DNA from: Peronospora farinosa
Taxonomy: Eukaryota > Oomycota > Peronosporomycetes > Peronosporales > Peronosporaceae
Assembly: GCA_947646735.1 (NCBI GenBank)
Contig: CANTFK010000017.1
Coordinates: 477,836 to 541,835 of the forward strand
DNA: 64,000 nt
Direction: 5' to 3'
Positions 22,433-53,339 of this stretch are shown here, one piece after another. A model generated the notes under the pieces. It worked only from the letters and a program-made list of their open reading frames with translations. It did no database searches and was not told the origin of the DNA. A program made the translations under genes and the position numbers. Each line of letters starts with the position of its first letter. The first letter of the stretch is position 1.

Positions 22433-23078
22433 TGTAGCGGAGCTGCACAGCTCTTTATCCAGAGGAAGACTTTAGGCTGGAAGCCTCTTAGTTCTAGAGA
22501 ACTAAATAGAGTTAAGGCTAAAAGCCACTTGGTTCTAAGGAACTAATTAAAACGACTTAAAGTCACCCTGTTCTACAGTAAGGAACTAGGAAAGAGACTT
22601 TAGTCAGTCAAGCAATAAGCTTTAGGTTTAGAGAACCAACGCACAGAGTGCAAGAACAAGCTAGAAGCTTAGGGGTTCAGAGAACCAACGCACGAAGTGC
22701 ACAAGAGAACAAGTCAGAACGACTTGCGATCTTAAACTCAAAATGAGAACTGATTTTGTTTAGGCTTTAAGATTTTGTGAATAGTCCTACTCTAAGTACA
22801 CTACACTAGATTAATTACTATAATAGTAATTATTATATGCAGACTTTGCTATTGGACGACGTATCGTCTAAACATCTGTGTATGATGTACTTAATACAGC
22901 GTTATCGATTTATCGAATCCAAATCGATAAGATACGGTATTACCGAATACCTTATTAAAACGCTCATACTTAATACCTCTCTAAAGAGAAGTATCAAAAT
23001 GCATTATATGCAATACAAAGGAGAGTTTTAACGGAAACTCTCGGAAAGACGCTACAACCGTCGTGTAACCCCGTTACA
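22433..23078 (-). repeat. Element C 3' LTR
   Basis: About 646 bp, read on minus from TGTAACGGGG to the TACA end. It matches 37,277-37,921 and, inverted, 61,361-61,996. It contains a cluster of inverted repeats between about 22,900 and 23,010. Confidence 0.93.
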
Positions 23079-23090
23079 CCCTCCCCCACC
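23079..23090 (-). promoter_or_regulatory. Element C polypurine tract
   Basis: On minus this reads GGTGGGGGAGGG directly before the 3' LTR, the usual plus-strand-DNA priming site of an LTR element. Confidence 0.75.
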
Positions 23091-23109
23091 AGACTGACGT
23101 TCTCATAGA

Positions 23110-24093
23110 ATGTCACTCGACATCTTTCCTCTTAGAGGTAGTGCTTTAGCGAACGTTAAAATCTTCCGTTTTTTCAATGCACATAGCATGACGCCTCCTG
23201 GCAGTGAGTCACAGACTCTTCGGGACCTCATTGAAGACGACCTTGACGAAGCGGTTGATTACGAAAGTGACACCGTCTTTGTGGGACCCGATGGGTACCC
23301 TTTAGCCACCCTCACGGGTAAAGATGACACTAGTCATGCACCGAATCCGTTCCCTGAACGTGGCGCTGCAGATGCGCTAACAGCGTTACGTGACCCGCCT
23401 GACGTATCATTAACGGTAACCGTTACCAACCCACTCGACGAGCAGCAGCAGCAGACCATCGACCAAGAGGAAGGCGCCAAGCGCCGGACGAAGACTATGG
23501 CGAGACTTCAGGTCCACCGACAGTATAAGTTCAATTCACCTACAGTGGAAGAGCGCCTGAAAGTGGCATCTGGCCAGTCCCTTTCTGGCTGGGCCATTGG
23601 GCCTGAGGCCATTTCACCTGAGGATGTTGCCACGCGCACGGCACTTCGACAACGATATCTGGAACCCCACATCACTACACAAAGCCAATACTTGGCACGC
23701 CTTAACAGGCAAGTGCGCGGTGCGCCAGTTCCTCCCATAGAGGGTGTTCCCATCCTTGTTCGCGGGGGAAACCGAGGACGAAGAAGACACGGCTTTCAGC
23801 CGCTGGGCGCATTATGCGCGACGTTTAAGCAGCATGTGGGCCCTGCGGGCAAGTGCCGATGTGGCAGATGTTCGACTCGAGCGAAAGATGCGTACGATTA
23901 CGCTAAATTGAAGGCCCGGGGAAAATTGAAATCCCAACGAACGCATTATGCGTCTGCTACCCAGCATCCCAATGTTTCGGCTACCCCTGTAGCCGCGAGT
24001 CCACGACAGCCCGAGGCCGCAAACCCGCCTACCCTCACCATTAATGGTGAGAAGCGTCAGCGCCAACAGGCTGACCCTGCGCACGACGCTTAA
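23110..24093 (+). CDS. Antisense ORF of element C
   Basis: An intact ORF of 327 codons on the strand opposite to element C, beginning 31 bp inside the 3' LTR boundary and ending 53 bp beyond the stop of the sense pol frame (24,041). The product is hydrophilic. It has an acidic N-terminal part (DLIEDDLDEAVDYESD), a QQQQ run, a basic middle (NRGRRRHG), a CRCGRC cluster that could bind zinc, and a Lys/Arg/Pro-rich end. It has no similarity I can see to gag or pol or to the antisense proteins of A and B. Its position relative to the 3' LTR is the same as in A, B and D, so the LTR may provide its promoter. Function unknown. It may be an accessory protein or a chance ORF; intactness in an otherwise broken element favours the former. 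Confidence 0.6.
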   Translation: MSLDIFPLRGSALANVKIFRFFNAHSMTPPGSESQTLRDLIEDDLDEAVDYESDTVFVGPDGYPLATLTGKDDTSHAPNPFPERGAADALTALRDPPDVSLTVTVTNPLDEQQQQTIDQEEGAKRRTKTMARLQVHRQYKFNSPTVEERLKVASGQSLSGWAIGPEAISPEDVATRTALRQRYLEPHITTQSQYLARLNRQVRGAPVPPIEGVPILVRGGNRGRRRHGFQPLGALCATFKQHVGPAGKCRCGRCSTRAKDAYDYAKLKARGKLKSQRTHYASATQHPNVSATPVAASPRQPEAANPPTLTINGEKRQRQQADPAHDA

Positions 24094-24174
24094 AAACGTC
24101 CACGGCGTATGGGCAATCCTGCCGAAGGGGAACCTCAAACTCCCATGAGTTCCACGACTCGGGATAACCCCGCC
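24041..24174 (-). pseudogene. Element C pol 3' end (chromodomain C-terminal half)
   Basis: On minus, the frame from 31,855 upstream resumes here once element A and one TSD copy are removed. It supplies the second half of a chromodomain (a GYPESWNSWE-type segment and a DCPYAVDVF-like helix) and stops with TAA at 24,041. This confirms that A landed inside the chromodomain codons of C. Confidence 0.85.
24170..24174. repeat. Element A target-site duplication, left (CCGCC)
   Basis: CCGCC before the 5' LTR is repeated exactly at 31,850-31,854 after the 3' LTR. A 5-bp duplication is normal for Gypsy integrase. Confidence 0.92.
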
Positions 24175-24516
24175 TGTAATGGGCTACATTACACATATAG
24201 CATTAACACAAATAAACAATTACATGTGTAGGCAGGTGCTGAGCCCGAATAGCGGGCACAGCGTGGTAATTTATTATTGGTTTATTATTGGGCCTAAAGT
24301 CCCCAATATGGACCAATGATAAATCAACCTGAAATTGTGTGGTTCCCGAAAGGCGGGAACACTGTCGTATTTATTACGACTAAAATCTTCGTAATTAGTA
24401 CGAATTAAAACCAAAATAAAAATCAGAGTTAAATTTACTTAATACCTAATACTTGGGCTTGAGTCTTCCTCGAGCGCGCGTGTAAGCTATTGACGGTACG
24501 TTCTAGCCCCGTTACA
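24175..24516 (+). repeat. Element A 5' LTR
   Basis: It runs from TGTAATGGGC to CCCCGTTACA, 342 bp. Inside are several inverted repeats: GTAAT/ATTAC at the start, GCCCG/CGGGC, a long TTTATTATTGG / CCAATGATAAAT pair and GTTCCCG/CGGGAAC. Confidence 0.95.
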
Positions 24517-24534
24517 CCTGGTAGCACTTTGTAG
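24517..24534 (+). promoter_or_regulatory. Element A primer-binding site
   Basis: CCTGGTAGCACTTTGTAG follows the LTR. TGGTAGCA fits the complement of an initiator-tRNA-Met 3' end (GCTACCA). Element B has TGGTAGCACTTCG at the same place and element D has TGGTATCACT. Confidence 0.6.
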
Positions 24535-24542
24535 TCCTTCCT

Positions 24543-25592
24543 ATGCCCGAGTTTGGGATGAGCGAATCGTCGTACTTTGACGCTCCAGATTTATTTCTGG
24601 AGCACGCGACCTTCCCCCATCTTACTGGTGTTGAGTGGGAAGCCCTTAATCGCCTCGCGGCGATATCGGGAGAGGCATTCGTCGCGTCGTTGATGAGATC
24701 AGCGACCCCTGACGCGCAACGTCTCGCCATACATGAGTTTATGGCACGCGAGCTCGCCGAATCCAACCGGCGAGGCTTAACTCCCTCGCGCCCTTCACGT
24801 AATGAGGCCGTGAAGATGGAAACCTCCTCCTACTCTGGAGAAGGTAAGGACCGGTTATCGCTGAACCGGTGGTTCCGAGAAGTTGATATCGCCATCGCCT
24901 CGAGACTTCTTGAGGCTCCACAGGCGAAGGTCAACTTTCTTCTTTCCCGCCTCACCGGGAAGGCCAAGGAGTGGGCCCTTGGTAAACTCGTTGTGGACGA
25001 GCACGCATTTCCCACCTTGGATACCATCCAGGACGATCTCCGTCTTGCCTTCGAGCCACCACAAGAGGAGAAACTGGTGCGATCAAGATTCCTGTCGATG
25101 CGACAGGGTAAAATGGCGATGCGCGACTACGTACAGATGGCTAGGCATCTGGCGTCGTGTATTATCACGCACCCCATGGACATGTACACACAGGTGAATG
25201 TCTTTGTCGATGGTATGCGTGAGGGGCAGACCCGCTTATCGCTGGAGCGCGCCGAGCCTGCCACATTGGAGGAGGCATTCGCCATCGCACTCCGTGAAGA
25301 CTTTAGGGTCACAAAGGCCTATGCCAAACCCTCGGTCGTCAGCGTTCCCCGGCCTTCTGGCCCAGAACCTATGGAGATCGACGTTATTGAGTCGTCGGGT
25401 GACCGACGACGTGTCTTTCATCATAAAGGTGACGCTCGCACCGGTCGTCAAATGGTTTGCTTTCGTTGTCGCAAGCCAGGACATCGCGCGGCAGAGTGCC
25501 GTGCGCCAGCTCCAATATCGGTGCAAGTAGTGGACGCCCATCATGAGGGTGCTGTACCGGCCGTACGTCCCAAAAACGGTCGGGACCAGTAG
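24543..25592 (+). CDS. Element A Gag
   Basis: An intact frame of 349 residues from ATG to TAG. The capsid-like retrotransposon gag domain covers about residues 100-230 ([39 protein letters not shown]). A CCHC zinc knuckle, [14 protein letters not shown], lies near residue 305 and would bind the element RNA. The stop codon lies inside a stem-loop and behind a slippery sequence, and pol continues in the -1 frame. The product would form cytoplasmic virus-like particles (family knowledge). Confidence 0.92.
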
Positions 25593-25612
25593 GTGCAGGG
25601 CGCCCTACTGGT
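25571..25612 (+). promoter_or_regulatory. Element A probable -1 frameshift signal at gag/pol
   Basis: C-AAA-AAC (25,571-25,577, in the Gag frame) is followed by a 7-8-nt spacer and a stem ACCAGTAGG (25,585-25,593) pairing with CCTACTGGT (25,604-25,612). The Gag stop TAG (25,590-25,592) is in the stem. The Pol frame is -1 relative to Gag and passes through as P-V-G-A-G-R-P-T-G. Confidence 0.65.
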
Positions 25613-27808
25613 TGGAACGGAGGTCCGGGTCCCCCGGTGGCAGCCTAACCTTCCAGTCCTCCTGCGCTACGCGCACGGTTAAATGCCACCACTACGAGTG
25701 GTGATTCACGTCTAATTATTGTCAGTTTACATGTCGCCGGCGTCCGGCGACCTCTGCGAGCACTCCTGGACTCAGGAGCAACAAACAATTTCTTTCGTGA
25801 ATCTTGTTTGTCGATGCTGCCTCCCAGCATTCAGGTCCGTGAGGGACCTGGCCAAGTCGTCGTCAAGTTGGCTGACGGGAAACCACACCGCGTATCGCGG
25901 CGCGAAGTGTCGTTGCCGTATACGTTTGATGGCTTTCGCAGTAATGATGATTTCTTGGTGATCGCAATGAATTATGCATTCGATTGCATACTGGGCATGC
26001 CATGGTTGGCACGTTATAAGCCCCAGATCGACTGGTTAGCCAGATCAGTGAGACGTCGACGCAAATTCGATGTCAGTGAAGTGTTTACCCATCTCTTGGT
26101 ATCTCCAAGTGACTGGCCGAACGTCACAGTCGTGGATCGTGATTCCACGACTTTGGCGGTGCACAGAGCGAGCGATGGCCCTCTCTGCACTGCCTGTGCT
26201 GTTCTTCGAGACACAAGTGACAGTGACTCCTCGCTACAGAGCGAAGAGGACGACGAGGACGACGCGGTCGAACAGGGGTTCCCGCGCGTCATTAATGCGG
26301 TTGAACAGGGGTTCCCGCACGTGAATGCAGTGGTTGAACCGGGGTTCCCATCTGCACCTATTGTGGTCGAGAAGGGGCTCCCACAAGGGAATTGTGGCGA
26401 CGAGCAAGAGCTCGCCAGCGAGTGTGACGTGGACGGACAGGAGTCCCCACGCGAGAGCATGATGGTCGAACCGGGGTTCCCATCATCACCCACTGTGGTC
26501 GAACCGAGGTTCCCACATGGGCATACTGTGGTTGAGCAGGGGCTCCCACGCGGGTTTACGGCGGCCGAGCAGGAGCTCCCGCATCAAGTGTCGACGGTCG
26601 AGTTTGGGGTACTCCCGTTTAGTGTTTCCGGCATCTTGGATGACGACATCCAGTGCTTAGAGGGGGGTGATGGTTTATCACCTGACTGCGGTTCGCCAGC
26701 TTCGAGTAGTGACTCGAAGCACGATGGGGACAGCAGCACCGAGAATTTAGCGTTGGAATGTGTCCACGCTATCGTGTACGTGGAAGGGAGTCTACAAAGG
26801 CGCCAATATATCGAGGTCGAGAGTCCTCCTCGTAATGCGTCTTCCATTACAAGTCTTCCAGGGCTTTCCTGGAAGCATTTCCTACGTGACCTTAAGGGAG
26901 GCACTGTGGAACAAGTGTGTCTAATCACCAACGAGGTGGTTACCGTGGCAAACGAGGAGCATATGGCGCGTCCTCGAAGCGCAGATCCGAATTCTGCGCG
27001 TGAAGAAAGGTTTGCATCACAGTCATGGGAGGCCCTGCGAGAGTCTGGTAACCCCGTCTACGACATTGCTCGTGAGTATGCAGACGTGTTCCCGGACAAG
27101 ATCCCGGCTGAACTTCCTGCGGACCGCGGTGTTCGGCACGAGATTGATCTCGTGCCAGGGTCGAAGTATTGTGTGACACGGAAGTGGCCGTTGCCTCGAG
27201 ATCAAGTCGAAGCTATTGACGCATTCTTTGAAGGTCGCCGCAAAGCGGGTCATGTGCGGGAGAGTATCTCACCACATTCGAGTCCAACCTTCTGCGTGAA
27301 GAAGGCTACGGGAGGCTGGCGGATAGTGCATGCGTTCAATAAGTTGAATGATGCCACTATTCCTGCGCAAACGCCAATTCCCAGGAAGGACATGGTGCTG
27401 AATGCCATGTCAGGTAGTGTCATCTTCAGTGCCATCGACTTGACCGATGGCTTTTACCAGATTTTGGTGCGCCCGAGCGATATCCCACTCACCGCGGTGA
27501 GCACCCCGAGTGGCATGTTATGGGAGTGGCTGGTAATGCCACAAGGGTTGAAGAACGCTCCGGCCACTTTCAATCGCATGGTGTCTCAAGTATTGAGACC
27601 TCTTCGGAACTTTGCCCCAAGTTATTTTGACGATATCTTCGTCCATAGTCGCGCCGAGAGCAACCTCAACGATGTCCAAGTTCACCTTCAACACCTGAAG
27701 CAAGTGTTTCAAGTTATGCGGGACAACAAGTTGTACGCGAATCTCAAGAAGTGTGTCTTTTGTGCACCGGAGATTCCGGTGTTAGGTTGCTATGTGAGTT
27801 CGAGCTGA
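25593..27808 (+). pseudogene. Element A pol: protease, repeat linker and RT
   Basis: The Pol frame carries the aspartic protease motif [11 protein letters not shown] (about 25,764-25,796). A stop (TAA, about 25,650) lies before it. A tandem-repeat linker follows, then the RT with [36 protein letters not shown] and the catalytic [10 protein letters not shown] (about 27,622-27,650). The frame breaks near 27,797 where a short deletion removes the NKEGV segment seen in element B. RT and protease active sites themselves are intact. Confidence 0.9.
26255..26620 (+). repeat. Element A protease-RT linker repeats
   Basis: About nine imperfect units of roughly 30-36 bp encode variants of [14 protein letters not shown]. 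They separate protease from RT. Element B has the same repeat type in the same place, C and D have unrelated repeats there. Confidence 0.85.
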
Positions 27809-29504
27809 TCCAGAGAAGGTGTCGTCCATCTGTTCTTGGCCCACGCCCAAGAACCCTACGGAGTTGCGCCAGTGGCTCGGCTTGGCTAATTATTTGCACA
27901 AGTATACGAAGGATTATGCTGGTTCTATCCAGCCTTTGTCGTCACTCTTGAAGAAAGACGCCACGTGGTTGTGGCGTCCCGAGCACCAAGCAGCCTTCGA
28001 AGCAGTAAAGAAGAGCCTAGCGTCAGCGCCAGTCCTGGTCCTACCAGACGATTCCAAGCCGTTCCACGTGGTTTGCGACGCCAGTGATTTTGCAATCGGT
28101 TGTGCCCTCATGCAATTTGATGATGAGGGCCGTGAACGAGTCGTGAGCTATCAGTCGCGACAGATGAAGCCAGCTGAGAAGAACTATCCGGTTCACGACA
28201 AGGAATTATAAGCGATGCGCTATGCACTCATCAAGTTTCGCGTGCATCTCCTTGGTGAAAGTACGTTTGCTTTGTACACCGATCATGCATCGCTGCGCAC
28301 AGCGATGAAGAGCCCACACCTGTCCCAACGGATGGCACGATGGCTCTCATTCTTCTCTGAGTACAACTTCGTCGTGCATTACAAGCCAGGCAAGACCAAT
28401 ATTCTCGCTGACGCCTTGTCACGACGTCCCGACTACGATCCTCGGACTGCTCTGAGTCGCCAGGCTACTGATGACGAGGACGATGATGACCGATGTGCAA
28501 TGTGTGTATCGCTGAACTTAACTCGGGTTACACCCGAGCCGTGTTTATTTGATGAGATCGTCGCAGCGTACAAGGGTGACTCAGATTATGCAGACATTAT
28601 CGAGTATCTGCGTGCTCCCAGCGATGCTGCACTGGGAGCATTATCCCGTACCAAGCGCGACCATATTCATCGATACAGTTTAGATGGCGATTTGCTTCTG
28701 TGTAGCATCGACCAATTCGATTCTCCTCGCACGGTGATTGCCAATGACATGGATTTGCGTGCAAGAATCATTCACGAGTATCACGATGCTCCTGCTGGCG
28801 GCCATTTAGGCCGCGAAAAGACTTTCGCGGCTGTGTCTCGAGACTTCTTCTGGCCCCACATGTATAAGTGGGTACGCAACTGGATCCGAACGTGCGAAAT
28901 ATGCCAGCGTGTGAAGCCATCTCCATCGTCACAGGCTCCCTTGCGATCGTTGCCAATTGCAGCAGAGGCCTGGAGATCAGTTTCGATGGACTTTATCTTC
29001 GGGCTTGCGCCCGATAGCCAAGCTCGAACGGGCATCTTGGTCTTTGTTGACAGATTCAGCAAGATGACACATCTCGTGCCTGTTCACGCTAAGGTCACCG
29101 CGGCAGAGACCGCGGCGCACTTCATCGACGCGGTGTTCCGTCATCATGGCCTTCCAGAAAATATTGTTTCGGACCGTGATCCGCGATTTACGTCCGCATT
29201 TTGGACATCACTTTTCGAGCTCCTCGGGACAAAACTGCTGATGTCGACGGCAGCCCATCCGGAAACGGATGGGCAGACCGAGCGCGTGAACCGAGTCCTC
29301 GAAGATGTTCTTCGGAGTTATGCTACGTCATTTACAAGTTGGAGTGCATTTTTACCACTCGCTGAGTTCGCACTCAACAACGCCGTACACGCGTCTACAG
29401 GGTTGACGCCATTTTTTGTGAATTCGGCTCGACACCCTCGTGTTCCTACTGTCCTGGCCGTGGGGCGACCCACAACACCTAGTGGCTCCACACAGGGGGG
29501 ATAA
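27809..29504 (+). pseudogene. Element A pol: RNase H and integrase
   Basis: RNase H (FHVVCDASDFAIGCALMQ, YTDHASLRT) is cut by a stop TAA at 28,209-28,211 where the homologue has a leucine codon. The integrase follows: the HHCC zinc domain (HEYHDAPAGGHLGREKTF to CEICQR, about 28,770-28,912) and the DD-E core with MDFIFGL (about 28,987), SDRDPRF (about 29,170) and QTERVNR (about 29,275). The frame ends at 29,504 near a run of six G, a likely slip point. Confidence 0.9.
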
Positions 29505-30890
29505 AGGTGATAAACAAGGATCGAGTGCAGCTCACGGTATTTTGAGCGCGAATGCAGTAACACGATCCAAGGCAAAGACGGCCATTTTGACGCCACAAGA
29601 CGTGGCGTCCCCATTAGCTCGATGGACTGCGCAGACATTGATTGACCCGTCTTCGGGTAAGCGTTCCCCTACTGCCAACTACGCGCCGATTGAGTCGGCG
29701 CGACCAATTGATGACATGGCCGTGTCGGAATTTATACTCCAACGTCAAGCCATCACCAGGTTTGTACGCGACGCACTACAAACTGCTGTAGACCTACAGA
29801 AGGAGAACGCTGACAAACATGGAAGAAAGAACATGAGAAAGTTTGAGAAAGGTGACCGTGTATTATTATCGACGGAAGGTTTAAGGGATTCTGCGGTCAC
29901 TAATCTGGGCGCGAGTAAACTCGCGCCACGCTTCATCGGTCCATTCAAGGTTCTGAAGTCAATTGGCGACGCTTATACACTCGACGTCCCCTCTTCACTG
30001 CGACTCCACCCGACATTCTATGTCGGGCGGCTGAAGGATATCGTCCGGCTACGCTTCACGGTTTGGCTCCGACGCCGGCTTCAGGGGTTCGTAAGTCGAA
30101 CGGCCTTCCCGTCGCGCTCGACGCGCCGATGACATGGGGCGGGGTCTCGATCCCGTCTGAACCTGACCAAGCATCTGGCGCTCCAGAATCCTTATCCGCT
30201 CGAGCAGTTCACGGTTCGACTGCCAGGTCTCACTCGAAGTCTTCTCCGCCTGGGCAGCACGTTCACTGGCAGCCTCAGCCTCCAGCCGAGCATCGGCAGC
30301 TATATTCACGGCCTGATCAACATCGTCCTGAGCAACCAGGACGCCAGCTCTACCACCGCGAGAGCCCTCCTCCGCTTGTTGATGCGGAGGGACAGGTGCG
30401 CTGGATTGTAGACCGCATTGTGGGTCACGAGGACCCTCCACAACCATTACTGCAGTCGGCTCATGAGAAGCGTGCGGTTCCATCCGTGCGTAGGTACCGA
30501 GTACGTTGGCTTGGATTCCCTCCCGAGCAGGATACATGGGAACCACGTTCCTCGCTCCTTCGTGACGTTCCAGATGTGGTTCTGTCGTATGAAGCCACGA
30601 AGTCGGACTATTCCAAGGCGGGCGAGCACGCGAACGCTCTCGTGACAAACGAGAGCGGTAAGGAGATTCACGTTGTCGGAAACGGGAACGATGACCAGAA
30701 CGAGAACGATGTCGCGAACGAGAACGACGCCGTGAACGAGAACGTCGCGGTGAATACATATCACGATTGCGAGGCGAGAATCGCGCAACTGGACGGACAA
30801 GCGAACGTGTCGCTGCCCTGCGCTGATGATCCCGCGGAGATTGTCTCCGCTGTCGCGAGTGGTGCTGCCAGCGAGGCGCACCACGAATAA
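29505..30890 (+). pseudogene. Element A pol C-terminus: GPY/F module and chromodomain
   Basis: In one frame up to 30,132 there is the integrase GPY/F-type module (LAPRFIGPFKVLKSIGDAYTL, HPTFYVGRLK). From 30,063 another frame runs to 30,890 with a chromodomain (WIVDRIVGHE, YRVRWLGFPPEQDTWEP, about 30,395-30,570), which in chromoviruses guides integration to modified histones. A frameshift near 30,040 separates them. The antisense ORF overlaps this region from 30,049. Confidence 0.85.
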
Positions 30891-31494
30891 CTGCGCTTCT
30901 CCGTTCGCTCAGACTTCGCTCATACTTTGCAATCCAACTTCGTTCGCGATCGCTGAGTGGACACTCAGCGATGTGTCGTCGCCATTCGTCATGAGTTGGG
31001 CGTGGAGTCGAGTCACAAGATTGGCATCCTTCATTGACATGGACAAAGCAGAGACGGTCCTCATTCCAAGCTTCCTCACACACTCTTTCGCGTAGCGCGC
31101 CGATGGAGTGATCGGCGCGAAGTTCCTCTCGATTGGCGAGCCATAACTGGAAGCTGCTACCATCCTCGAGCATCCGATTCCAACGTTGGATGAAGGCGCA
31201 CCAAGAACGTTGTAGAGCTTCATGCTCGATTCCATCAAGACCTTTCCCGCGCAGTTTTCGAAATCGGCGGAAGTATTCCCGCATCATGTCCAGTGAGTCC
31301 GGAGCGTGAGCTCCGGACAAGTCGTACAGCGACCAAGGTATGAGCTGCCGCGCCATGATGCTGGTTGATGCATTCCCGCTGATGTATCTTGGGCGTCCTG
31401 CTGGATTGGGTTCTGGGTCTCCGGACATTGCTTGTTCGTTTGTGGGCGAAGGGTTTTCGACAGTTGAGCACTCACGGTTGGTGAGTGCTGTCAT
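30049..31494 (-). CDS. Antisense ORF of element A, 481 residues
   Basis: An intact ATG-started frame opposite to pol, opening 14 bp inside the 3' LTR. Residues about 1-200 lie where no sense ORF exists (30,891-31,494). There the product shares with the element B antisense frame: an LxPWxLYxLxGA start block, MxxxFxRxRxxRGK, ALQRSWCAFI, a WLxxRE block, and LxxVHxxEGCxxC followed by WIAxYERSLSE. CQSC with downstream H and C could bind zinc. A long Ser/Arg stretch (RRSRSRRRSRSRHRSRS) and a coiled-coil-like end with AAQAEKTSSETWQSNRELLER follow. RS-type proteins bind RNA or splicing factors, so a role with element RNA is a guess. A promoter in the 3' LTR is implied by position. No known family was recognised. 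Confidence 0.7.
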   Translation of the reverse strand: MTALTNRECSTVENPSPTNEQAMSGDPEPNPAGRPRYISGNASTSIMARQLIPWSLYDLSGAHAPDSLDMMREYFRRFRKLRGKGLDGIEHEALQRSWCAFIQRWNRMLEDGSSFQLWLANREELRADHSIGALRERVCEEAWNEDRLCFVHVNEGCQSCDSTPRPTHDEWRRHIAECPLSDRERSWIAKYERSLSERRSAVIRGAPRWQHHSRQRRQSPRDHQRRAATRSLVRPVARFSPRNRDMYSPRRSRSRRRSRSRHRSRSGHRSRFRQRESPYRSRLSRERSRARPPWNSPTSWLHTTEPHLERHEGARNVVPMYPAREGIQANVLGTYARMEPHASHEPTAVMVVEGPRDPQCGLQSSAPVPPHQQAEEGSRGGRAGVLVAQDDVDQAVNIAADARLEAEAASERAAQAEKTSSETWQSNRELLERIRILERQMLGQVQTGSRPRPMSSARRARREGRSTYEPLKPASEPNREA

Positions 31495-31507
31495 GAGAAG
31501 GGGGTGA
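31495..31507 (+). promoter_or_regulatory. Element A polypurine tract
   Basis: GAGAAGGGGGTGA lies directly before the 3' LTR. Confidence 0.8.
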
Positions 31508-31849
31508 TGTAATGGGCTACATTACACATATAGCATTAACACAAATAAACAATTACATGTGTAGGCAGGTGCTGGGCCCGAATAGCGGGCACAGCGTGGT
31601 AATTTATTATTGGTTTATTATTGGGCCTAAAGTCCCCAATATGGACCAATGATAAATCAACCTGAAATTGTGTGGTTCCCGAAAGGCGGGAACACTGTCG
31701 TATTTATTACGACTAAAATCTTCGTAATTAGTACGAATTAAAACCAAAATAAAAATCAGAGTTAAATTTACTTAATACCTAATACTTGGGCTTGAGTCTT
31801 CCTCGAGCGCGCGTGTAAGCTAGTGACGGTACGTTCTAGCCCCGTTACA
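31508..31849 (+). repeat. Element A 3' LTR
   Basis: 342 bp, identical to the 5' LTR except for two substitutions by eye. CCGCC follows as target duplication (31,850-31,854). Confidence 0.96.
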
Positions 31850-31854
31850 CCGCC

Positions 31855-32812
31855 ACTTTACCAGATACTGGTTTTGACCATGGCGGCGACGTTTCTGCAA
31901 CAGACGTTCGACATGGAACTGAAGGTTCCCCTGCGCATTGATCAAAGCCGGAGGAGGCCGGTGTATCGGCACAAGCTCATGCCGAGCTTGTTCAAGAGGT
32001 GCGGTTCCTCCATGAGGATAGGCAGTCGATGAACTCCCGGCTTGAGTCACTGGAGGAGAGCCGAACCCGAGTGCAGGGTCAGCTTGACCTGTTGGTGCAG
32101 ATGCTTCGTCCCGCGACAATGCCAATGGGCTCGGCGCGAGCGCCTTAATGTTTACTTGGGACGGATCCCGATATAGTTTCAGCATGCCGACGTAGAACAC
32201 AGGATGTGTACGCAATTTGCGCGTCAAGTTAAGCGTATACGCTGTGCCTTTCTTTGCAATGACCGTAAAGGGTACGATAAAGCGCGGACGCAACTTCGTC
32301 TTAAAGACAGCAGATACTACATTGGTAGGTAGATTTTTCGCATTTAGTAATACTTGGTCTTCGACCTCATAATCATTAATACAACCTTCTGTCTTTCGCA
32401 TCTGCATATTCTTTTGTTTATCTTGACTATCAGACATTGCATCTTGCACATGTCGTAAGACATTTAGTCGCGTTGCGAGAAACGCATTCACCTGTTTCCT
32501 AACAGTATTAGGGCTGACATCAGCAAGCCGATCGGCAACCTCTCCCCCACCAAGCCCTGAACCACTCGGTGGTAGCGTTAAAGGAACGCGTGGGTGTGTG
32601 AGACCATTCACATAGAACGGAGTGTAGCCGGTAGAAGCGTGCACGGAATTATTGAGTGCAAACTCAACTACAGGGAGCATAGTGCTCCATCGCTTAGGTG
32701 TTTCAGCACAAACGCTGCGTAGGATATCTTCCGCAACGCGATTTACGCGTTCGGTTTGACCATCGGTCTGCGGATGATCCGCCGTGGACATGTCCAAACG
32801 GGTGCCCAGCAC
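31855..32812 (-). pseudogene. Element C integrase C-terminus and chromodomain start
   Basis: An open minus frame covers the end of the integrase core (DMSTADHPQTDGQTERVNRV with the catalytic Glu), the GPY/F module (LRPRFIVPFTVIAKKGTAYTL), a Pro/Ala-rich linker and the first half of the chromodomain (FHVERLLQKRR, NQYLVKW). It is interrupted by element A and resumes at 24,174. Confidence 0.9.
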
Positions 32813-33391
32813 CTGGAAGACGGACTTCCAAATTTACTCGTAAAACGAGGATCACGATCAGAAACAATTGCCACTGGCAAGCCATGTTGGCGAAACACAC
32901 GATCGATAAACGGCTCCGCTGTACCCACACCATCGATCGAATCTGGCACAGCCGCTAAGTGAGCCATCTTGCTCAAACGGTCAACAAAGACCACAATACC
33001 TGTATTGCCATGCGAATCTTTCGGTAGGCCAAATACAAAGTCCATACTAATGGACTCTTAGCACCCAGTGGGAATAGGCAAACTAGCCAGCGGCGCTGCC
33101 GAATGGGGCGAGGGTTTCACCCGTTGACACGTTTCACATGTACGCACAATATGTGCTCACCCATTTATATAATTTGGGCCACCAATAACGTTGGCATACT
33201 GCCCCATAGGTCTTTTCACGACCCAAATGACCACCGATGGCGGATTCATGTACCTCATAGAGGATACGATACTTCAAGTCCTCGTCGTGAGGAACCACAA
33301 TACGCGGAGGATCCGCCACATCCGTACGATAGTACAACAGCCCCTTATCGATAGAATATCGATGGAGGCTCGGACGTAATCGTGCCGACAA
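32743..33391 (-). pseudogene. Element C integrase N-terminal and core domains
   Basis: Frames 33,391-33,134 and 33,045-32,743 carry the zinc-binding domain (YEVHESAIGGHLGREKTY, YWWPKLYKWV) and the core (MDFVFGLPKDS, VFVDRLSKMAHL, SDRDPRFTSKF). A break between them and a frameshift near 32,810 show decay. Confidence 0.88.
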
Positions 33392-35258
33392 TTAGATGTC
33401 CGAGTCTTTAAACTCCTCACTGCTAAGAGCATGTAGAAACGCTATACAGTGATCATCTTTAGCATACGCCGATCGAATGAGATCACTGACAGAAGACGAC
33501 AACGTTGTAACATGAGCAAGCTCATAGTCAGGTCTGCGTGAAAACGCATCAGCCAAAACATTTGCTTGCCTGGCTTATATTTTACCTCGAAATTATATTC
33601 GGCAAAGAGTGACAGCCATCTGGCCATTCTCTGCGAGAGATGCGGCGACTGAGTCGCAGTGCGTAAGGACGCATGATCGGTATAGATCACAAAAGGCTTT
33701 GAGCCCAGCAGATGAACTCTGAATTTGACCAGAGCATACTTCATCGCAAGTAGCTCGTTTTCATGAGCTGAAAAGTTCTTTTCTGCAGCTTTCAGCTAGC
33801 AAGATTCAAAAGCGATCACACGCTCACGGCCTTCATCATCTGTTTGTGACAGATCACTGCCAATGGCAAAATCCGACGCGTCACAGAAGACGCTAAACGA
33901 TCGATCAGGATCTGGCAAACCCAATATAGGAGTATGTACAAGGCTAGCCTTTGCTGCTTGAAAAGCATCCTCGTGTTCGCCATGCCAACACCATTCCACA
34001 TCCTTTTTTTAGGAGATTGGATAACGGCCGAGCCATATCAGCGTAATTCTCGCTGTACTTGTGTAAGTAATTGGCAAGGCCAAGACATTTACGCAAGCCC
34101 TTCTAAGACTGTGGAACAGGCCAATCGACTATGGCTTTGACCTTGGCGGGATCCGCTTTTAGGCCTCGTTTCCCAATGAAGCACCCTAGAAAGGGAATTT
34201 CTTCGGCCCCGAAGATGCACTTAGATGCATTAGCATATAATTTATTAGTGCGCATGCACTCGAGCACTGCTCATAAATGAACAATATGATTCTCAATATT
34301 TGACCGCCCATGTTCAGCTCGACTATGGACAAAAATGTCATCAAAGTACGTCTGTGCATAACTTCGATGGGGTCGAAACAATTGCGTCACCAAAAGGTTA
34401 AACGTAGCCGGAGCATTAGATAGCCCCTGGGGCATCACTAACCATACCGCTCGGAGTACTTACAGCAGTAAGCGGAATATCGCTAGCTCGCATGAGAAAT
34501 TGGTAATAACCATCGACTAAGTCGAGCGCACTGTACATGGTACAACCGACCATATTGTTCTGAAGAACATCCTTTCTAGGTATTGGCGTCTGTGCAGGTA
34601 TAGTGGCTGCATTGAGCTTATTATAAGCATGAACGATACGCCATTTACCATTCGGTTTCTTAACACAGAAAGTGGGTGTCGAGTGCGGAGATTTGCTCTC
34701 GCGCACCATGCCCGCCGCGTGCTTTGCACGAAAGAACTCGTCAATGACGTCACACTGTTCTTTGGGTAAAGGCCACTGCCGTGTTACACAGTATTTGGTT
34801 CCGGGAACCAAGTCAATTTCATGACGTACACCCCTATCAGGTGGTAGAACCGACGGTGGATCGTGACACACCACGTACTGGAATTCCTTAACTAAAGGAT
34901 AGTAGGGATCTGAAGGGTCCTTCAGAATAGATGCCCCACTACGTGCACTTAGTGCCGCCTTTGTATCTTCGAGGACTGTCTCATCGACAAGCGAGGATGA
35001 GTTCAGCTCGAGGTTAGGTCGAATGACCACCATATCGGATAGAGCACCTGCCTTCAAGGCCTGATGAAATTCATCCACAGACATTTCGTCTAGCTCTAAA
35101 AGAGCATTTAATGATAGGAGGGCCTCAAGGTCAACCTCACCATCTACATCACCTTTCACTCCGTTGACCAGAGTGTACAACTGATCACTGACATTACTAC
35201 GCGATAAAACAGACGTTTTGCATCTCGCAGCCGCCATCTGGCGACGCTGCCGTCTCAT
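33392..35258 (-). pseudogene. Element C reverse transcriptase and RNase H
   Basis: RT blocks on minus are [32 protein letters not shown] and [10 protein letters not shown] short deletion near 34,450 shifts the frame just before the PQGL block. The catalytic [12 protein letters not shown] codons are at about 34,315-34,355. RNase H (CDASDFAIG, YTDHASLRT) lies at 33,442-33,999 with further breaks. Confidence 0.88.
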
Positions 35259-35275
35259 TGACGAGACCGTACAAT

Positions 35276-36157
35276 TTAAAGTATTTGGGATACTATCATC
35301 CCCAAGTCAACTGATCCCTTGACCATAAACTGCCCTATACGAGGGCCGATGTCAATATTGACATTCAGTGAGTCACTAGTACCAGTGAATTCACTAACAA
35401 GGCCATCGACCTTCACTTGCTCTATACGAGAGCCGATGTCATTACCGACATCCAGTGAGTCACTAGTACCAGTGACTTCACTAACAAGGTCATCGACCTT
35501 AACTTGCTCTATACGAGAGCCGATGTCATTACCGACATCCATTGTCTCAATATTACTTTGAGTTTCATTCAACGGAGTACGTGCCGTTCCACTAGGTGTC
35601 ACTGAGCTCTGCTCGACACTATTATTGTTGACATTGAAGTTTATAAACTCAGACACTCCAATGTCCAGCACACTAACTGACTCAGTTAATGGCTCGCGCC
35701 AATAGCACTTTTGTTTCCTAGCGAAGGTGGGTTCATGACTCTCCAAAGCTTCGCTAGGAACATTGCGCGTTGCGCCTAAAGTTTTGGATCTCCAATCGAT
35801 CCACGGCTCATGGCGTTCCAGCCAGGCCATACCGAGAATGAGATCATATCTCGAGTCCAAATCTAGGACAAGACAGCATTCAACGCTATTGAAGTCTAAG
35901 AACTTCACACCAAAGTTAAACGGAACTTTAGGAGCGGTGACACGTACACCGGTCGCGAGACGCACAGTTATACTGTCACCCTCTTGTTCTTCTAGCGCCT
36001 CAGCATACAGCTGACTCCCTTCAAGGAAACGACGTCGGACATAATTACCTGACGCCCCTGAGTCAATTAAAATTGACCATGTTTTCTCAAAACCATTAAT
36101 GATTGCCGACACAACCAACAAGCCTGGCTTGTAATCTTGTTCTATGGGAGCCTCCAC
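35276..36157 (-). pseudogene. Element C protease with three-unit repeat linker
   Basis: The frame holds the aspartic protease (ILIDSGASGNYV, and LILGMAWLERHEPWIDW as the second conserved block). It ends in about three copies of a 28-29-residue repeat (DIGSRIEQVKVDDLVSE followed by TGTSDSL), encoded around 35,330-35,550. RT lies in another frame after the TAA at 35,276. The family copy at 63,116 has the same end, so this frame change may be a family trait. Confidence 0.88.
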
Positions 36158-36188
36158 AGAACCACCTGGGGCTAAGCCCTGTTTACCT

Positions 36189-37250
36189 TTACCACCTAAA
36201 GATCCAACAGAACTTTGTTCTTTCCCAGTAGGGCGCCCCGCGCCTACTGGGAGCTGACGTTTTCCCCTGCGGTGCTCTCCTTTTGGCTAGGAGCAGGGTT
36301 TCGGCTTTGCCGATTTGAACGTTGCTTTTGCAACGGAAGCTAGGGCGGAGATGCCTAGTGCTTCCGCACATATAACGTCTACGGATGTTACCTTGCTGCT
36401 CAGCAGCTGGAAGCTCAGCTTCTTCAGCTTGACTGAGATCCATGGGTTCCGCCCTGTTAGAGATATTTGATTGATACCAGGGCAGACCATATCTAGCAGA
36501 TTTAAAATTAAATTCAGCGTTAAACGCTATGCTTACTGCCTCTTCAAAAGTCGAAGGCTGGACACGGATAACTTCCGTCCTGGCGACCCCAGTGCGAAGT
36601 CCTTCCATAAAAATGGTTACTCGGACTTCCTCTGCCAGTGGGTCCTGCTGCATAGTAGCAATGAGAGTTCTAAACTCTTGGACATAGTACGACAATTCTT
36701 TCTTACCCTGTCGGGTAGCTAAGAAGCGTGAGCGCACACGATAAGCCTAATTAGGCGGTGCAAACACGCTAGTTAATTGCTTTTTCAGCATTTACCATGT
36801 GGGGAATGCGGCATTTACAGAGACATCGCTCGTTAGAGCCCACTCTCTAGTCCTTCCACCAAGCTTCGAAATGGCCAAGCCAACTCGTTGCTGATCTGAT
36901 ACAAGCATGGCGGCATCCATTGCCATTTCAACTTCTCGGATTCAGAGGAGAAGGTTCTCTCCCTCCTTCCCCTCAAAGGCCTTTACGTTTAAAACAAGTG
37001 GGCGAGCCTTTGGCTCTGCATCGGGCACAGGTACCGGAATGTACTGTGTAGGCGCAGCTGACGCTGCCTGGTCATTGACCTGCCCGAGGAGCGTTGCTTC
37101 ATAACGCATAAAGGCCTCATGATGAGCATTTAGAACCTCGGGGTCTTGGGCCAAAAGGGCCTCGATTTGATCGGGCCCGACGAACGCCGATTGTTTATCT
37201 AAAGCGAGTCGTTGTGCCTCAGAGAGGTGATTTTGATTTTTCATCCTCAC
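36189..37250 (-). pseudogene. Element C gag with stop codons
   Basis: The frame starts with ATG at 37,250 or 37,244 (MRMKNQN). It is cut by a TGA at 36,942 (a Trp codon in the 62,023 copy), a TAA and a TAG (about 36,795 and 36,750) that are also present in that copy. It then continues through a RSRFLATRQGKKELSYYVQE gag block. The zinc knuckle is degenerate: it reads RYMCGSTRHLRPSF, with its first cysteine replaced. The hinge stem-loop (36,224-36,251) lies at the end. Confidence 0.88.
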
Positions 37251-37276
37251 AGAGGGTCAGCCTTTAAAGACTAAGG

Positions 37277-37921
37277 TGTAGGAGCTTCACAGCTCTTTAT
37301 CCAGAGGAAGACTTTAGGCTGGAAGCCTCTTAGTTCTAGAGAACTAAATAGAGTTAAGGCTAAAAGCCACTTGGTTCTAAGGAACTAATTAAAACGACTT
37401 AAAGTCACCCTGTTCTACAGTAAGGAACTAGGAAAGAGACTTTAGTCAGTCAAGCAATAAGCTTTAGGCTTAGAGAACCAACGCACAGAGTGCAAGAACA
37501 AGCTAGAAGCTTAGGGGTTCAGAGAACCAACGCACGAAGTGCACAAGAGAACAAGTCAGAACGACTTGCGATCTTAAACTCAAAATGAGAACTGATTTTG
37601 TTTATGCTTTAAGATTTTGTGAATAGTCCTACTCTAAGTACACTACACTAGATTAATTACTATAATAGTAATTATTATATGCAGACTTTGCTATTGGACG
37701 ACGTATCGTCTAAACATCTGTGTATGATGTACTTAGTACAGCGTTATCGATTTATCGAATCCTAATCGATAAGATACGGTATTACCGAATACCTTATTAA
37801 AACGCTCATACTTAATACCTCTCTAAAGAGAAGTATCAAATTGCATTATATGCAATACAAAGGGGAGCTCTAACCGTAAACTCTCGAAAAAAAGCTACAA
37901 CCGTCGTGTAACCCCGTTACA
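37277..37921 (-). repeat. Element C 5' LTR
   Basis: About 645 bp on minus, matching 22,433-23,078. Sequence after the LTR (CCTTAGTCTTTAAAGG) does not begin with the TGG expected of a tRNA primer site. Confidence 0.93.
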
Positions 37922-38475
37922 CCTTGTGCACAAGCGAGGAAGCGGTTAAACCGTCTTACCTTTGCGTGCGAGGGTGGTTAGGAGGTTGTTCGACTGCTTA
38001 AGAAGCCGTACCACCAGTTGCCTCTCACTAAAGAGAGAGTGCAACGAACTTCTAACTAAGAAGGCACCGGCATCACGCAGAAGCTTTTTCAGCTTCTCGT
38101 GCGCGGTGCTTTCGATGTTAGCAAATTCAAGACTGAGATATATTTGATTAATTATAACTAAATATATACTTAACTACTGATTGGCTATATATGTATATAG
38201 ATGGAATACGCGACTCTTTAGAATCGTATCCTGTCGCATGAACTTAAATCTAGATTTAAGTTTGAGAATGACGTTCTTCTGAGATGTCGTGATGCCTAGC
38301 TTCAACTAGCGTCATCCCTTCCCATGTGAATCCATAAATGGATATCACATTCACGAGGGTGTATCACGTTTGTGTATCGCACCCAAGTGACAGGTCAAAA
38401 GTAATCATGGATACTTTTAGACCAAACATTAAGTATATTAATTAATGTTTACGTGTAACTAGATGCCCTGTTACA
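37922..38475 (-). repeat. Element D 3' LTR, main part
   Basis: Matches 53,408-53,962. It ends, read on plus, at CCCTGTTACA. A perfect 20-bp palindrome ACTTAAATCTAGATTTAAGT and further inverted repeats are inside. On minus, GATGG-type purines (GAGGGATGG, 38,476-38,484) precede it as polypurine tract. Confidence 0.92.
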
Positions 38476-38580
38476 CCATCCCTCGTTTAAGAACGATGTT
38501 TACATTTTGTAAAACATCGCCTAAGAGACAGAGCGACTTGCGAGCCGTTATAAACGCGCCGCTTAGCCTACTCAATTCTC

Positions 38581-40031
38581 ATGCCACCGAAACGTGGTAA
38601 GGCTGATGGGTCGCCTGCAAAGGCAACCATGCAGTCCAGCACTAAGCGCACGCGCCGCGATTTATCGCAGCCGTCGCAAAGTGCTTCAGGCACTGAGGTG
38701 AATCTTCCATCTCACTATAATGTGGATGAAGATCCATCTCTCATTGTAGACTACAATGAGACTACGCCATTGTCATCACCCCAAAGTGGAGATGAGCAAA
38801 CCGCGTTAATAGGACATATGTACCCATCATTTGAGGCACCCGTCCTTGAGGGAGCGTTGATGCTTCCTGCAAGAGAAGGTAAAGCCTCGTCGCCTGCGCC
38901 TACGAGCGCAGCGACTAAGACTAAACGCTCTACTTCGAGAGGAGTAGTCGCGACTCAGTCAGATGTGACTCCTCAAGCTGATGTCTTGACAATCCATAAT
39001 GGAGAGTCAAACTCAGGTGAGTGTGAGCATACAGCTCCACCAAGTACACCTTCGGCCTCACGAGCCCGCCGTCGCGAGGGCGGCTACAGGAGTGGCGGCT
39101 TGCCACCAATGCCACCTCCATCTGAGTGGATGAACTCGGATGGGTCTAGTGCAGCGCTTTGCAGCGTGCCACTATTGAGGCTCTTAAGTTTTATAGCGTC
39201 TTTCCCTTGTGGAAAAAGCAGGGCAAAGCACTTGGCCGTGCTTTCCCAATCCAGTCGTGCTGCGTTCTAACGAAACAGCCGACGAATATGAAGCTGAACT
39301 TCGGCGCCGTGTTACCTTGCATGAAGATGCAACGAAACAACTGTTGCAGCGAATAAGCTTCGCCATGAAGCGTGCGCATGAAATTTTGGGTGGTAAGCCA
39401 CCCCCAATTAGTTCTCGCCACGCTTCTTCTGCTAGTCCGTCCGGACCTAGCAGAAAGACGACAGCTGGTGCTGCTTCACATAAGCAGCACCAGCCCAGGC
39501 ACGTCAACGCGCAAAACGACCACAGGCTCCTACGAGTCAAAGCTCGTTGTGTAACCCTTCCACTGGACCAGGATTTGGAGCTTTCGCTTCACAAACCGGT
39601 GGGCCAACAGCTTTCAAACAAGGAAGCGCGTATTCCCTTCCGTGTCCACCAACACAGGTGGCGCCCTATAGGAGTGGCGATTACGCCCACCTACTCGCGG
39701 CTGCCTACCCTGCTGCTATTCAGTCGCAGGATGAGTTCGCTGCGCTGAAGAGGCAGATGAGAGATCTCAAGAGTCAAGTCCCGCGACCGAACTCGGATCT
39801 GCGCGATGTAAGGACGAGGGACCGTCAGGGGTATGACCGCCTGAAGACCCGTTTTGACATCTTAGAGCGACTGGTGATGAGAGACCCGCGTCAGGCGCGG
39901 AGTTCTCCTCGATCGCCGAGTCCTCTATCGCATCGTTCGTATACGGGGAGCCTCTCGGCTTCCTCGTCGCCTAATCGGTCGCGACGCTCGACTCACAGTC
40001 GACGTCACCATCGGTCTAACGAGACCGATGT
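38581..40031 (+). pseudogene. Antisense ORF of element D, frameshifted and cut by element B
   Basis: ATG at 38,581 opens a plus frame opposite to element D, 106 bp after its 3' LTR. It reads 229 codons, shifts frame near 39,160 and again near 39,600, and reaches 40,031 where element B entered. After removing B the frame meets a TGA at 47,804-47,806. The product would be about 490 residues: a basic start (MPPKRGKADG, TKRTRRDL), an acidic Ser/Thr-rich middle, helices of EYEAELRRRVTLHEDATKQLL type, a coiled-coil-like DEFAALKRQMRDLK segment and a Ser/Arg end (RSRRSTHSRRHHR). It overlaps the end of D pol on minus (stop about 39,924). The RS-rich and coiled-coil content recalls the A protein but I see no alignable motif. 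Confidence 0.6.
40027..40031. repeat. Element B target-site duplication, left (GATGT)
   Basis: GATGT is repeated exactly at 47,792-47,796. Confidence 0.92.
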
Positions 40032-40350
40032 TGTAATGGGTCTACCTATTACATAAGTAGTTATAGGATTAATACATAATTACGTAAGTAGGCATAGGGC
40101 AGTATCCGATTAGCGGATACTGCGCGTCATTTTATTATTGGTTTATTACTGGGGTGCCAGAACCAATAATTAACCAATAATAAATTGACTTCCACATTGA
40201 GTGGTTCCCATGAGCTAGGGAACATATTCGCACTTACTGCGAATTAAAACTAAAACAAAAATAAAACAGAGCTATATTTACGAGTTAATTAAGAGCGCTT
40301 CCTCAACGCCCTTTTAGTGTAAGACGGTAACGGGTCCTTAGCCCGTTACA
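40032..40350 (+). repeat. Element B 5' LTR
   Basis: Begins TGTAATGGGTC and ends GCCCGTTACA. Inverted repeats sit at the same relative positions as in A but with different sequence, e.g. AGTATCCG/CGGATACT and GTTCCC/GGGAAC. Confidence 0.95.
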
Positions 40351-40370
40351 CCTGGTAGCACTTCGTAGTC
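40351..40370 (+). promoter_or_regulatory. Element B primer-binding site
   Basis: CCTGGTAGCACTTCGTAGTC directly follows the LTR and is nearly the same as in element A; TGGTAGCA fits an initiator tRNA-Met 3' end. Confidence 0.6.
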
Positions 40371-40376
40371 CTTCCA

Positions 40377-41415
40377 ATGACCAGATTCGAGATGAACATG
40401 GGCGAGTCTTCGGTGGCTCCAGCGGTCTCGCTGGAGCATTCTGTTTTCCCACATCTCACCTCGGTGGAGTGGCAGGCACTACATCGCCTCGCGGCGGTGT
40501 CTGATGAAACTATTGTGACGTCGCTGCTTAGCACAGCGACGCCTGATGATCAACGTGCCGCCATCCAAGACTTTATGGTGCACAAGCTCGACGAAGCGAA
40601 TCGGCGAGTATCGACTCCCTCGCGCACTTCGCACCATGACGCTATCAAGATGGAGACGTCAACGTACTCCGGTGATGGTCCGGATCGTCTCCCCCTCAAT
40701 CGCTGGTTTCGCGAGGTGGATATTGCAATAGCGTCAAGATTAATTGACGCTCCGACGGCCAAGGTCAATTTCCTGTTGTCTCGTCTTGCCGGCAAAGCCA
40801 AGGAATGGGCCCTCGGAAAGCTTGTCGTAGATGAGTCGGCGTTTCCTACGCTGGACGATATCCAGCGTGACTTACGACTGGCTTTCGAGCCTCCTCAAGA
40901 TGAATCTCGCTTGCGTGAAGATTTCTTCTCACTCCGACAGGGCAAGCTGCCGATGCGTGACTACGTGCAGAAGACACGTCATCTTGCTTCGTGCATTACC
41001 ACGCAGCTAATTGACATGGCTTCAAAAGTCCATGTCTATTTTTGGTATGCAAGAGGGCATGACGCGTTACTGCCTCACACGTGCTGAGCCAAAGTCCCTC
41101 GAGGAGGCATTTGCCCTCGCGCTTCGTGAGGATTACACTGTCGCGTCGTCGTACCTGCACGCAGCGTCACAACATTCCCGGATGTCTGGCCCAGAGCCAA
41201 GGGAAATTGATGCAATTGAGTCCTCTCGTGGTCGCGGCAAATCATTAAGCCGCGACATTCGCAATCCTAACACGATGAAGTGTTTTCGCTGTGGTAAAAC
41301 AGGCCATCGTGCGGCTGTCTGTCGTGCACCTGCGCCGGTGACGATGAGCACAGCTGTCTCACGAGGAGACGCTGTGTCGTCGGTGGTCCCGCCAAAAAAC
41401 GAGCGGTTCCAGTAG
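40377..41415 (+). pseudogene. Element B gag, one frameshift
   Basis: ATG at 40,377 opens the gag domain ([43 protein letters not shown]). An extra base in the TATTTTTGG run near 41,040 moves the frame; the downstream frame has the knuckle CFRCGKTGHRAAVC and ends with TAG at 41,413-41,415 inside the hinge stem-loop. Confidence 0.9.
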
Positions 41416-41434
41416 GCGTGGGGCGCCCTACTGG
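41394..41434 (+). promoter_or_regulatory. Element B probable -1 ribosomal frameshift signal
   Basis: A-AAA-AAC (41,394-41,400) is a classical slippery heptamer placed in the Gag frame. It is followed by an 8-nt spacer and a stem CCAGTAGG (41,409-41,416) with CCTACTGG (41,427-41,434). The Gag stop TAG (41,413-41,415) is inside the stem. The protease frame is -1 and open from the heptamer onward. Confidence 0.75.
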
Positions 41435-43137: not shown

Positions 43138-43143
43138 TATTGC

Positions 43144-45609: not shown

Positions 45610-46064
45610 CGTGATGCATTCTATTGCGCCTCCCGTTGCTAATATTGCTCCAAAAGAGCATTTGTTGCCTGTAAGTTAGGCTGCATTAACCTAGTTTCTC
45701 CTATTACGACAAAGAATCATGCGTTTTTTACGTGATGTAGCACAAGAGGCAGTCGACAAGAAAGGAGAATGCAGATAGAAGAGGTCAAAAGAATATGTTG
45801 GCATTTTGAGAAGTTGACAGAGTATTGTTATCAACAAGTGGATTACCGATCACCTCAGTGACGAATTTGGGCGCTAGTACGTTAGCGCCAAAATATATTG
45901 GCCCATTTCGGGTTGTTAAGGTGCATGGTGACGCTTACACGCTAGCCATACCTACATCTATGCGTTTGCATCCGACGTTCTACGTCAGGCGCCTCAAGGC
46001 TTACCTACCCGAAATCCGACATCCCTTGACGACGACGTTGACGACGACTGGGACCAAGTCCTGA
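45610..46064 (+). pseudogene. Element B pol, GPY/F region
   Basis: After the stop at 45,609 the sequence is poorly preserved up to about 45,820. Then NLGASTLAPKYIGPFRVVKVHGDAYTL and HPTFYVRRLKAYLPE are recognisable as the integrase C-terminal GPY/F module. Confidence 0.8.
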
Positions 46065-47357: not shown

Positions 47358-47455
47358 GCTGCTCAGTTATGTCTATCTGAGCAGGTTCGAAGTTACGCCG
47401 TTGGTCGAGAAAATACTTTCTGCGATTCGCGCTTACGTTGAGGTAAGCGCAACTT

Positions 47456-47791: not shown

Positions 47792-47796
47792 GATGT

Positions 47797-53317: not shown

Positions 53318-53339
53318 GCTCAGAGAGACGGGTCGTGGG

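Follow-up and report, generated by a model that had tools for sequence, protein, structure and literature searches.

We analysed a 64,000-nucleotide stretch of the Peronospora farinosa genome (the window; positions 477,836 to 541,835 of contig CANTFK010000017.1, assembly GCA_947646735.1), in which a Ty3/Gypsy long terminal repeat (LTR) retrotransposon, element A, carries an intact 481-codon open reading frame (ORF) opposite to pol and next to its 3′ LTR. This ORF and its counterparts in three other elements of the window, B, C and D, almost certainly represent a real protein-coding antisense gene of these Ty3/Gypsy elements. An earlier note on this DNA, made from the sequence alone, had pointed out the ORF in A and a decayed version of it in B; it missed elements C and D, each of which also has an antisense gene adjoining its 3′ LTR, in the same layout. 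The reading is thereby extended from two to four families, and within the literature searched antisense genes in oomycete Gypsy elements appear to be new.

The ORF of A lies exactly where it had been reported, with 13 bp separating its ATG from the start of the 3′ LTR at 31508 (Table 1); the next longest minus-strand ORF opposite A's own genes encodes 159 amino acids (among ORFs listed from 100 amino acids up). When the 46.85-Mb genome was searched with the A antisense protein, 103 matches were found, which merge into 89 loci, a lower bound. We analysed selection and stops in 64 A copies and 30 B copies (copies with the full A region, n=35); copies were collected through the antisense gene itself, and elements without the gene are not counted. 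An LTR adjoins the ORF in all 39 A loci with flanking sequence (35 distinct copies), in 9/9 B copies and in 8/8 C and D copies. Of the 35 full A copies, 11 keep the frame open over its whole length, ATG to reference stop (12 by a looser cut), and 17 keep it open from codon 23. Codon 21 (31432-31434) is a stop in 13/64 A copies, directly before an in-frame ATG (M23), so translation may begin at codon 23. The earlier note had held that frequent stops in young copies would count against a gene; stops such as that at codon 21 do occur, and nearly half of the full copies (17/35) are open downstream of it.

Over codons 23-200 the antisense frame contains 14 stops, confined to 10 of the 64 A copies, leaving 54 stop-free (indels ignored), while each of the other five frames is stopped in 64/64. 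As had been noted for 30891-31494, no sense ORF exists there: all three sense frames contain stops in every one of the 64 copies. Selection was measured in this part, which lies beyond pol. On the internal branches of a tree of the 64 copies, codons 23-200 show 80 non-synonymous (N) and 80 silent (S) changes and one stop, which against a neutral expectation of 2.49:1 gives a ratio of 0.40. The 30 B copies (N=31, S=32, one stop) give 0.38 of neutral. The binomial p for the deficit is 1e-8 in A and 1e-4 in B, with branches that are not fully independent. Terminal branches have higher ratios (0.68 in A, 0.71 in B), which fits a population in which many copies are dead. Internal-branch ratios in the shifted and sense frames are 1.30-2.85; the exception is the mirror frame (0.44 in A, 0.56 in B), which has its wobble column in common with the antisense frame and contains stops in 64/64 A and 8/30 B copies. 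Compared with the two deepest subfamily copies, the ratio of non-synonymous to silent substitution rates (dN/dS) of A is 0.34 (0.21-0.54) and 0.35 (0.23-0.52), at dS of 0.41 and 0.66, and none of 1000 bootstraps reaches 1. In the C family, window C compared with two family copies gives a ratio (omega) of 0.22 and 0.26, and pairs of D copies give 0.37-0.64. Selection on the non-overlapping part, whose neutrality the earlier note had named as a refutation, is purifying in A and B.

It could be argued that the ORF is a shadow of pol, held open by chance through sense constraint and codon bias. About 280 of the 481 A codons do oppose the pol end, and profile comparison of the A and C proteins yields a single match, which sits opposite the chromodomain. 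However, the N-terminal 200 codons in A, and about 285 in C and D, lie beyond pol, where no sense frame is open and the antisense frame is under constraint; the N-domain is, moreover, conserved across genera. For the antisense-only part the shadow explanation is refuted by this constraint and by the stops in the other frames, and overall we regard it as highly improbable. The earlier note had likewise denied a shadow of pol, and its argument gains from the finding that the antisense frame alone is mostly open over codons 23-200 and is under purifying selection there.

Several results weigh against a protein-coding antisense gene. Among the 35 closest A copies the antisense-only part gives 1.03 on internal branches (N=33, S=13), whereas pol-only sequence gives 0.23, and single pairs with the window copy span 0 to 1.53 over 63 copies. 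Two of the six D pairs have intervals above 1, and pairs with window D give 0.41-0.89. Inside the pol overlap, the position test gave no clear signal in A, C and D. The gene is known here from DNA sequence, and no Pfam, PDB or viral fold match indicates a function. Constraint is seen in the 64 A and 30 B copies and in deep pairs but not in the 35 closest copies, whose value comes from few changes, 13 of them silent. The constraint is thus clear over longer times; between the youngest copies it is not.

Element B represents a second family, nine fetched copies of which have LTRs with 91-96% identity to those of window B. Its decayed antisense gene, described earlier, was recovered as frameshifted pieces matching a B-family protein at 99% (47357-47091), 95% (47088-46093) and 93% (46097-46011); A's own antisense protein matches window B at 46% over 68 amino acids and 30% over 358. 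The lack of a sense ORF claimed for 47,013-47,357 holds in that the pol frame ends at 47012, but the mirror frame, another sense frame, is stop-free over antisense codons 1-114 in 22/30 copies. In four of the nine B copies a complete 471-codon antisense frame (stop to stop; 468 amino acids from the first ATG) and an open pol end of 505-512 codons occur together, giving an overlap of about 354 codons in which both strands are open. The antisense N-domains of A and B are 45% identical over 161 residues and their reverse transcriptases (RT) 89%, so the antisense protein changes at a far higher rate than RT does. In four B copies (L041, L042, L043, L048) we observed that the pol frame does not end at the chromodomain but continues into a Cys-rich tail, which faces the antisense N-domain.

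For C and D, four copies each were fetched, chosen as stop-free. Their antisense frames (stop to stop, 443 codons in C and 500-521 in D; 427 and 481 amino acids from the shared ATG) adjoin the LTR, oppose pol and end just beyond the SH3 domain in all eight. Over the antisense-only part (268-289 codons) the antisense frame is free of stops in these 8/8 copies, which were preselected as stop-free, and every other frame contains 7-28. The RT of A is matched at 55-83% by pieces from C and D.

We compared the gene between the four families. Codon position 1 of the antisense frame stands opposite codon position 1 of the sense frame in 6/6 copies tested from all four, and the overlap with pol ranges from about 142 codons (C) to about 354 (B). 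The coils of C and D match by profile (87%, E 4e-6), with a weak match between the coils of A and D (11%, E 0.003), and the sole match between A and C is the one mentioned above. Between A/B, C and D, profile comparison found no relation in the N-terminal half, the D alignment having only two rows and that of C being partly shallow. This might suggest that a host gene was captured by transduction, or an unrelated gene inserted. However, the same end just past SH3, the same phase opposite the chromodomain and the coil recur in all four families, and the named database relatives listed are all hypothetical, unnamed or uncharacterized proteins; we consider this explanation improbable. The shared end, phase and coil argue instead for common descent in place, and we infer one gene kept in place with exchanged or fast-changing N-domains across A, B, C and D. 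More tentatively, and with somewhat less than even confidence, a single ancient antisense gene may predate the split of these oomycete chromodomain Gypsy lineages and have been retained in every one of them, phase-locked to the chromodomain, its N-domain replaced or fast-diverged. It would then be a counterpart of the deltaretroviral gene HBZ that evolved apart from the plant genes discussed below, with an N-domain shaped by conflict with host silencing.

The predicted proteins have relatives in the databases, as a search proposed in the earlier note could now establish. The A-type relatives number 26, the named ones coming from three oomycete genera, Phytophthora, Peronospora and Hyaloperonospora; for the C type there are 67, among them one from P. 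sojae and, as the best, a Peronospora effusa protein with 96% identity. The Arg/Ser-rich (RS-rich) stretch and coiled-coil end described earlier for B have counterparts in the A protein, which has 27 RS/SR dipeptides against 16.8 by composition and for which AlphaFold2 predicts a long C-terminal helix. For the C protein AlphaFold2 predicts a domain at residues 81-250, with block means of 77-94, as well as a disordered segment in the middle and a helix of 46 residues. The basic middle is RS-rich in A and B and has lysine/arginine (K/R) clusters in C and D; K/R clusters were found in all four proteins. In the N-domain of A, four cysteines are largely kept in 19 aligned rows (C139 and C149 in 19/19, C157 in 16/19, C160 in 18/19), and this stretch possibly binds zinc. 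No Pfam family is consistent, the commonest matching 6/19 A-type and 2/25 C-type proteins; in the A type it is an alanine zipper on the helix (best E 0.0003, below its cut-off in A). The HBZ protein has a bZIP. Among the Pfam hits listed for the antisense proteins bZIP is absent, a long C-terminal helix being predicted instead, and the likeness to HBZ here is the position of the ORF, 13 bp from the 3′ LTR in A.

How might the gene work? It is probably driven from the LTR, judging by its position: the ATG of A is only 13 bp away from the LTR, and the distance in B, C and D is about 97-111 bp, so a promoter is to be expected within the 3′ LTR unless flanking DNA supplies it. The 3′ LTR of an integrated copy would produce a leftward RNA, whose protein product may enter the nucleus through its basic segments (a predicted property, given the K/R clusters of all four proteins) and dimerize through the coil. 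The basic middle together with the coil suggests a nuclear dimer on element RNA or LTR-bound factors, which the family-specific N-domain would bind, and the protein could thereby tune how the genomic RNA is transcribed, processed or exported. That the product is a nuclear regulator of the element is, in our estimate, an even bet. Taken as a whole, an LTR-driven antisense gene for a predicted nuclear coiled-coil accessory protein that would regulate the element's own RNA or transcription is the best explanation, and one that we favour to a modest degree.

Alternatively, the antisense RNA rather than a protein may act, leftward LTR transcripts pairing with genomic RNA and feeding or blocking silencing. 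Excerpts of two papers are consistent with this, one reporting small RNAs of both orientations on two abundant Gypsy elements of Phytophthora infestans (PMC3522703) and the other discussing RNA roles for plant antisense ORFs (PMC7264820). An RNA on its own, however, leaves unexplained the codon-position-specific constraint in all four families and the confidently folded product (AlphaFold2, C), and is in our view a poor candidate, although an RNA role could add to that of the protein. It is also conceivable, if unlikely, that the protein is not a regulator but acts as a partner in structure or RNA packaging, akin to a second nucleocapsid or Gag protein. An LTR-driven gene for a regulatory protein remains our preferred reading.

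The elements themselves are laid out in Table 1. Element A has LTRs that differ at just two sites and is flanked by a 5-bp target repeat (CCGCC at 24170-24174 and 31851-31855), which indicates a young insertion. Its pieces follow the order of Ty3/Gypsy chromodomain elements in Pfam (RT, RNase H, integrase, SH3, chromodomain), and B (RT to integrase) and C (SH3 and a cut, sub-threshold chromodomain) supply supporting pieces of the same order. The sense frame of A is broken several times, as had been observed before: pol breaks near 27806, at 28209 and near 29502. About 0.6 kb separates pol from the 3′ LTR. We also observed 33-bp tandem repeats in the protease-RT spacer of A (26265-26582, with units like VEQGFP) and of B (42052-42500). 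The U3 of the A and B LTRs contains an inverted repeat with CCAAT boxes on both strands (24273-24324, 31606-31657, 40134-40181, 47574-47621), a candidate two-way promoter core that is retained no better than its surroundings.

Table 1. Positions of the elements, their genes and the parts of the A antisense protein in the window.
Feature	Position	Strand	Basis
Element A, Ty3/Gypsy LTR retrotransposon, nested in C	24175..31850	+	LTR pair, target repeat, Pfam gag/RT/integrase/chromodomain
5′ LTR of A, 343 bp	24175..24517	+	2 differences from 3′ LTR
gag of A	24543..25592	+	Pfam Retrotrans_gag, zf-CCHC
Broken pol of A in the window (protease, RT, RNase H, integrase)	25808..29504	+	Pfam; frames 25808-27808, 27819-28211, 28215-29504
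3′ part of A pol with SH3_Tf2-1 domain	29440..30132	+	Pfam
pol end of A with chromodomain, opposite antisense codons 202-478	30063..30890	+	Pfam Chromo 3.8e-8
Antisense ORF of A, 481 amino acids	30049..31494	-	ORF list; 89 merged genome loci; 26 database relatives
Antisense-only part of A ORF, codons 1-201, beyond pol	30891..31494	-	all sense frames stopped in each of 64 copies; omega 0.40 on internal branches (codons 23-200)
Predicted helical N-domain of A, residues 61-203	30886..31314	-	AlphaFold2 block means 67-88 over 61-200; conserved across species/genera
Four-cysteine stretch, C139, C149, C157, C160	31015..31080	-	19 aligned rows
Arg/Ser-rich segment of A, residues 204-290, predicted disordered	30625..30885	-	RS/SR dipeptides; AlphaFold2 confidence (pLDDT) mostly <50
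Predicted long helix (coiled coil) of A, residues 389-442 (54 residues), opposite SH3-chromodomain linker of pol	30169..30330	-	AlphaFold2; Pfam placement
Purine-rich tract (like a polypurine tract), between antisense ATG and 3′ LTR	31495..31507	+	sequence
3′ LTR of A, 343 bp	31508..31850	+	ATG of antisense ORF 13 bp away
Element B, nested in D	40032..47791	+	LTR pair 40032-40350 / 47470-47791, starts trimmed by eye; pol by Pfam
Decayed antisense gene of B, three pieces	46011..47357	-	93-99% to B-family protein; 3 stops in middle piece
Element C (about), host of A	22433..37921	-	LTR pair 97.8%; SH3; cut chromodomain just under Pfam cut-off
Antisense ORF of C, N-terminal part; gene cut by A	23110..24093	+	123 genome matches; omega 0.22-0.26 against two family copies
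C-terminal coiled-coil part of C antisense gene, far side of A, one internal stop	31851..32148	+	resembles the gene end in intact copies of the family
Element D (about), host of B	37919..53962	-	LTR pair 96%; RT match
Antisense gene of D, frameshifted, cut by B	38581..40031	+	frames 38581-39270, 39209-39748, 39547-40056; 152 genome matches (first frame)

Among retroviruses a few were previously known to have antisense genes, as were plant Gypsy lineages and one fungal element; here four families within one 64-kb window of a crop-pathogen genome carry one, with measurable selection at the protein level and an overlap of up to about 354 codons open in both directions. This makes the function testable, given many copies, selection that can be resolved codon by codon and oomycete RNA-seq that is already published. 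Pathogen gene catalogues list such transposon proteins as 'hypothetical protein'. The earlier note knew of no description for this family: in the literature searched we found none of an antisense retrotransposon gene in oomycetes, but the kind is already known from plant Gypsy elements and Boty. The oomycete Gypsy group Chronos, as presented in part of PMC5348765, resembles A in its chromodomain at the pol end and has a second, archaeal-type RNase H; among the eight families listed for B's 821-amino-acid RT-to-integrase frame the only RNase H matches are of the RT_RNaseH types, and the word 'antisense' is absent from the main text of the Chronos paper. MchSLE-1 of Mytilus is described in an excerpt of PMC10974842 as an LTR element with an antisense transcript and ORF, but that ORF has just 67 amino acids. 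Human T-cell leukaemia virus has an antisense promoter in its 3′ LTR (mentioned in PMC7264820), and the deltaretroviral antisense gene HBZ gives a nuclear protein (mentioned in PMC11963269).

The closest parallel in layout is with the antisense additional ORFs between pol and the 3′ LTR (aORF-3R) of plant Gypsy elements, namely gene23 of maize Grande, rice RIRE2 and Silene Retand (PMC7264820, PMC11963269). Boty of Botrytis and Sclerotinia is the non-plant element named in PMC7264820 with an antisense ORF at this place, likened by description and not by sequence. In the passages of PMC7264820 and PMC11963269 that treat them, aORF-3R are antisense to gag-pol, adjoin the 3′ LTR and occur in most copies and several species; the product of Grande is nuclear, and some products have coil-like Smc or Mis12 hits. 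The gene of A is likewise antisense to gag-pol and lies between pol and the 3′ LTR, its 3′ part overlapping pol, and it is kept in most of the copies examined (54/64 stop-free over codons 23-200) with relatives in three genera. Differences are also apparent. Retand proteins, in the same passages, carry TRP28 (PF04195), which does not appear in the families listed for the 19 A-type and 25 C-type proteins with an E cut-off of 1, a listing from which HMMER filters remove most hits above 0.1. The Retand lineage is non-chromovirus with a pol-3′ LTR region of 2.9-6.6 kb, whereas A has a chromodomain and about 0.6 kb. Furthermore, the gene here runs some 142 (C) to 354 (B) codons into pol, and its host is an oomycete. 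The plant aORF-3R and the oomycete genes are thus similar in working plan, a likeness that does not by itself show kinship.
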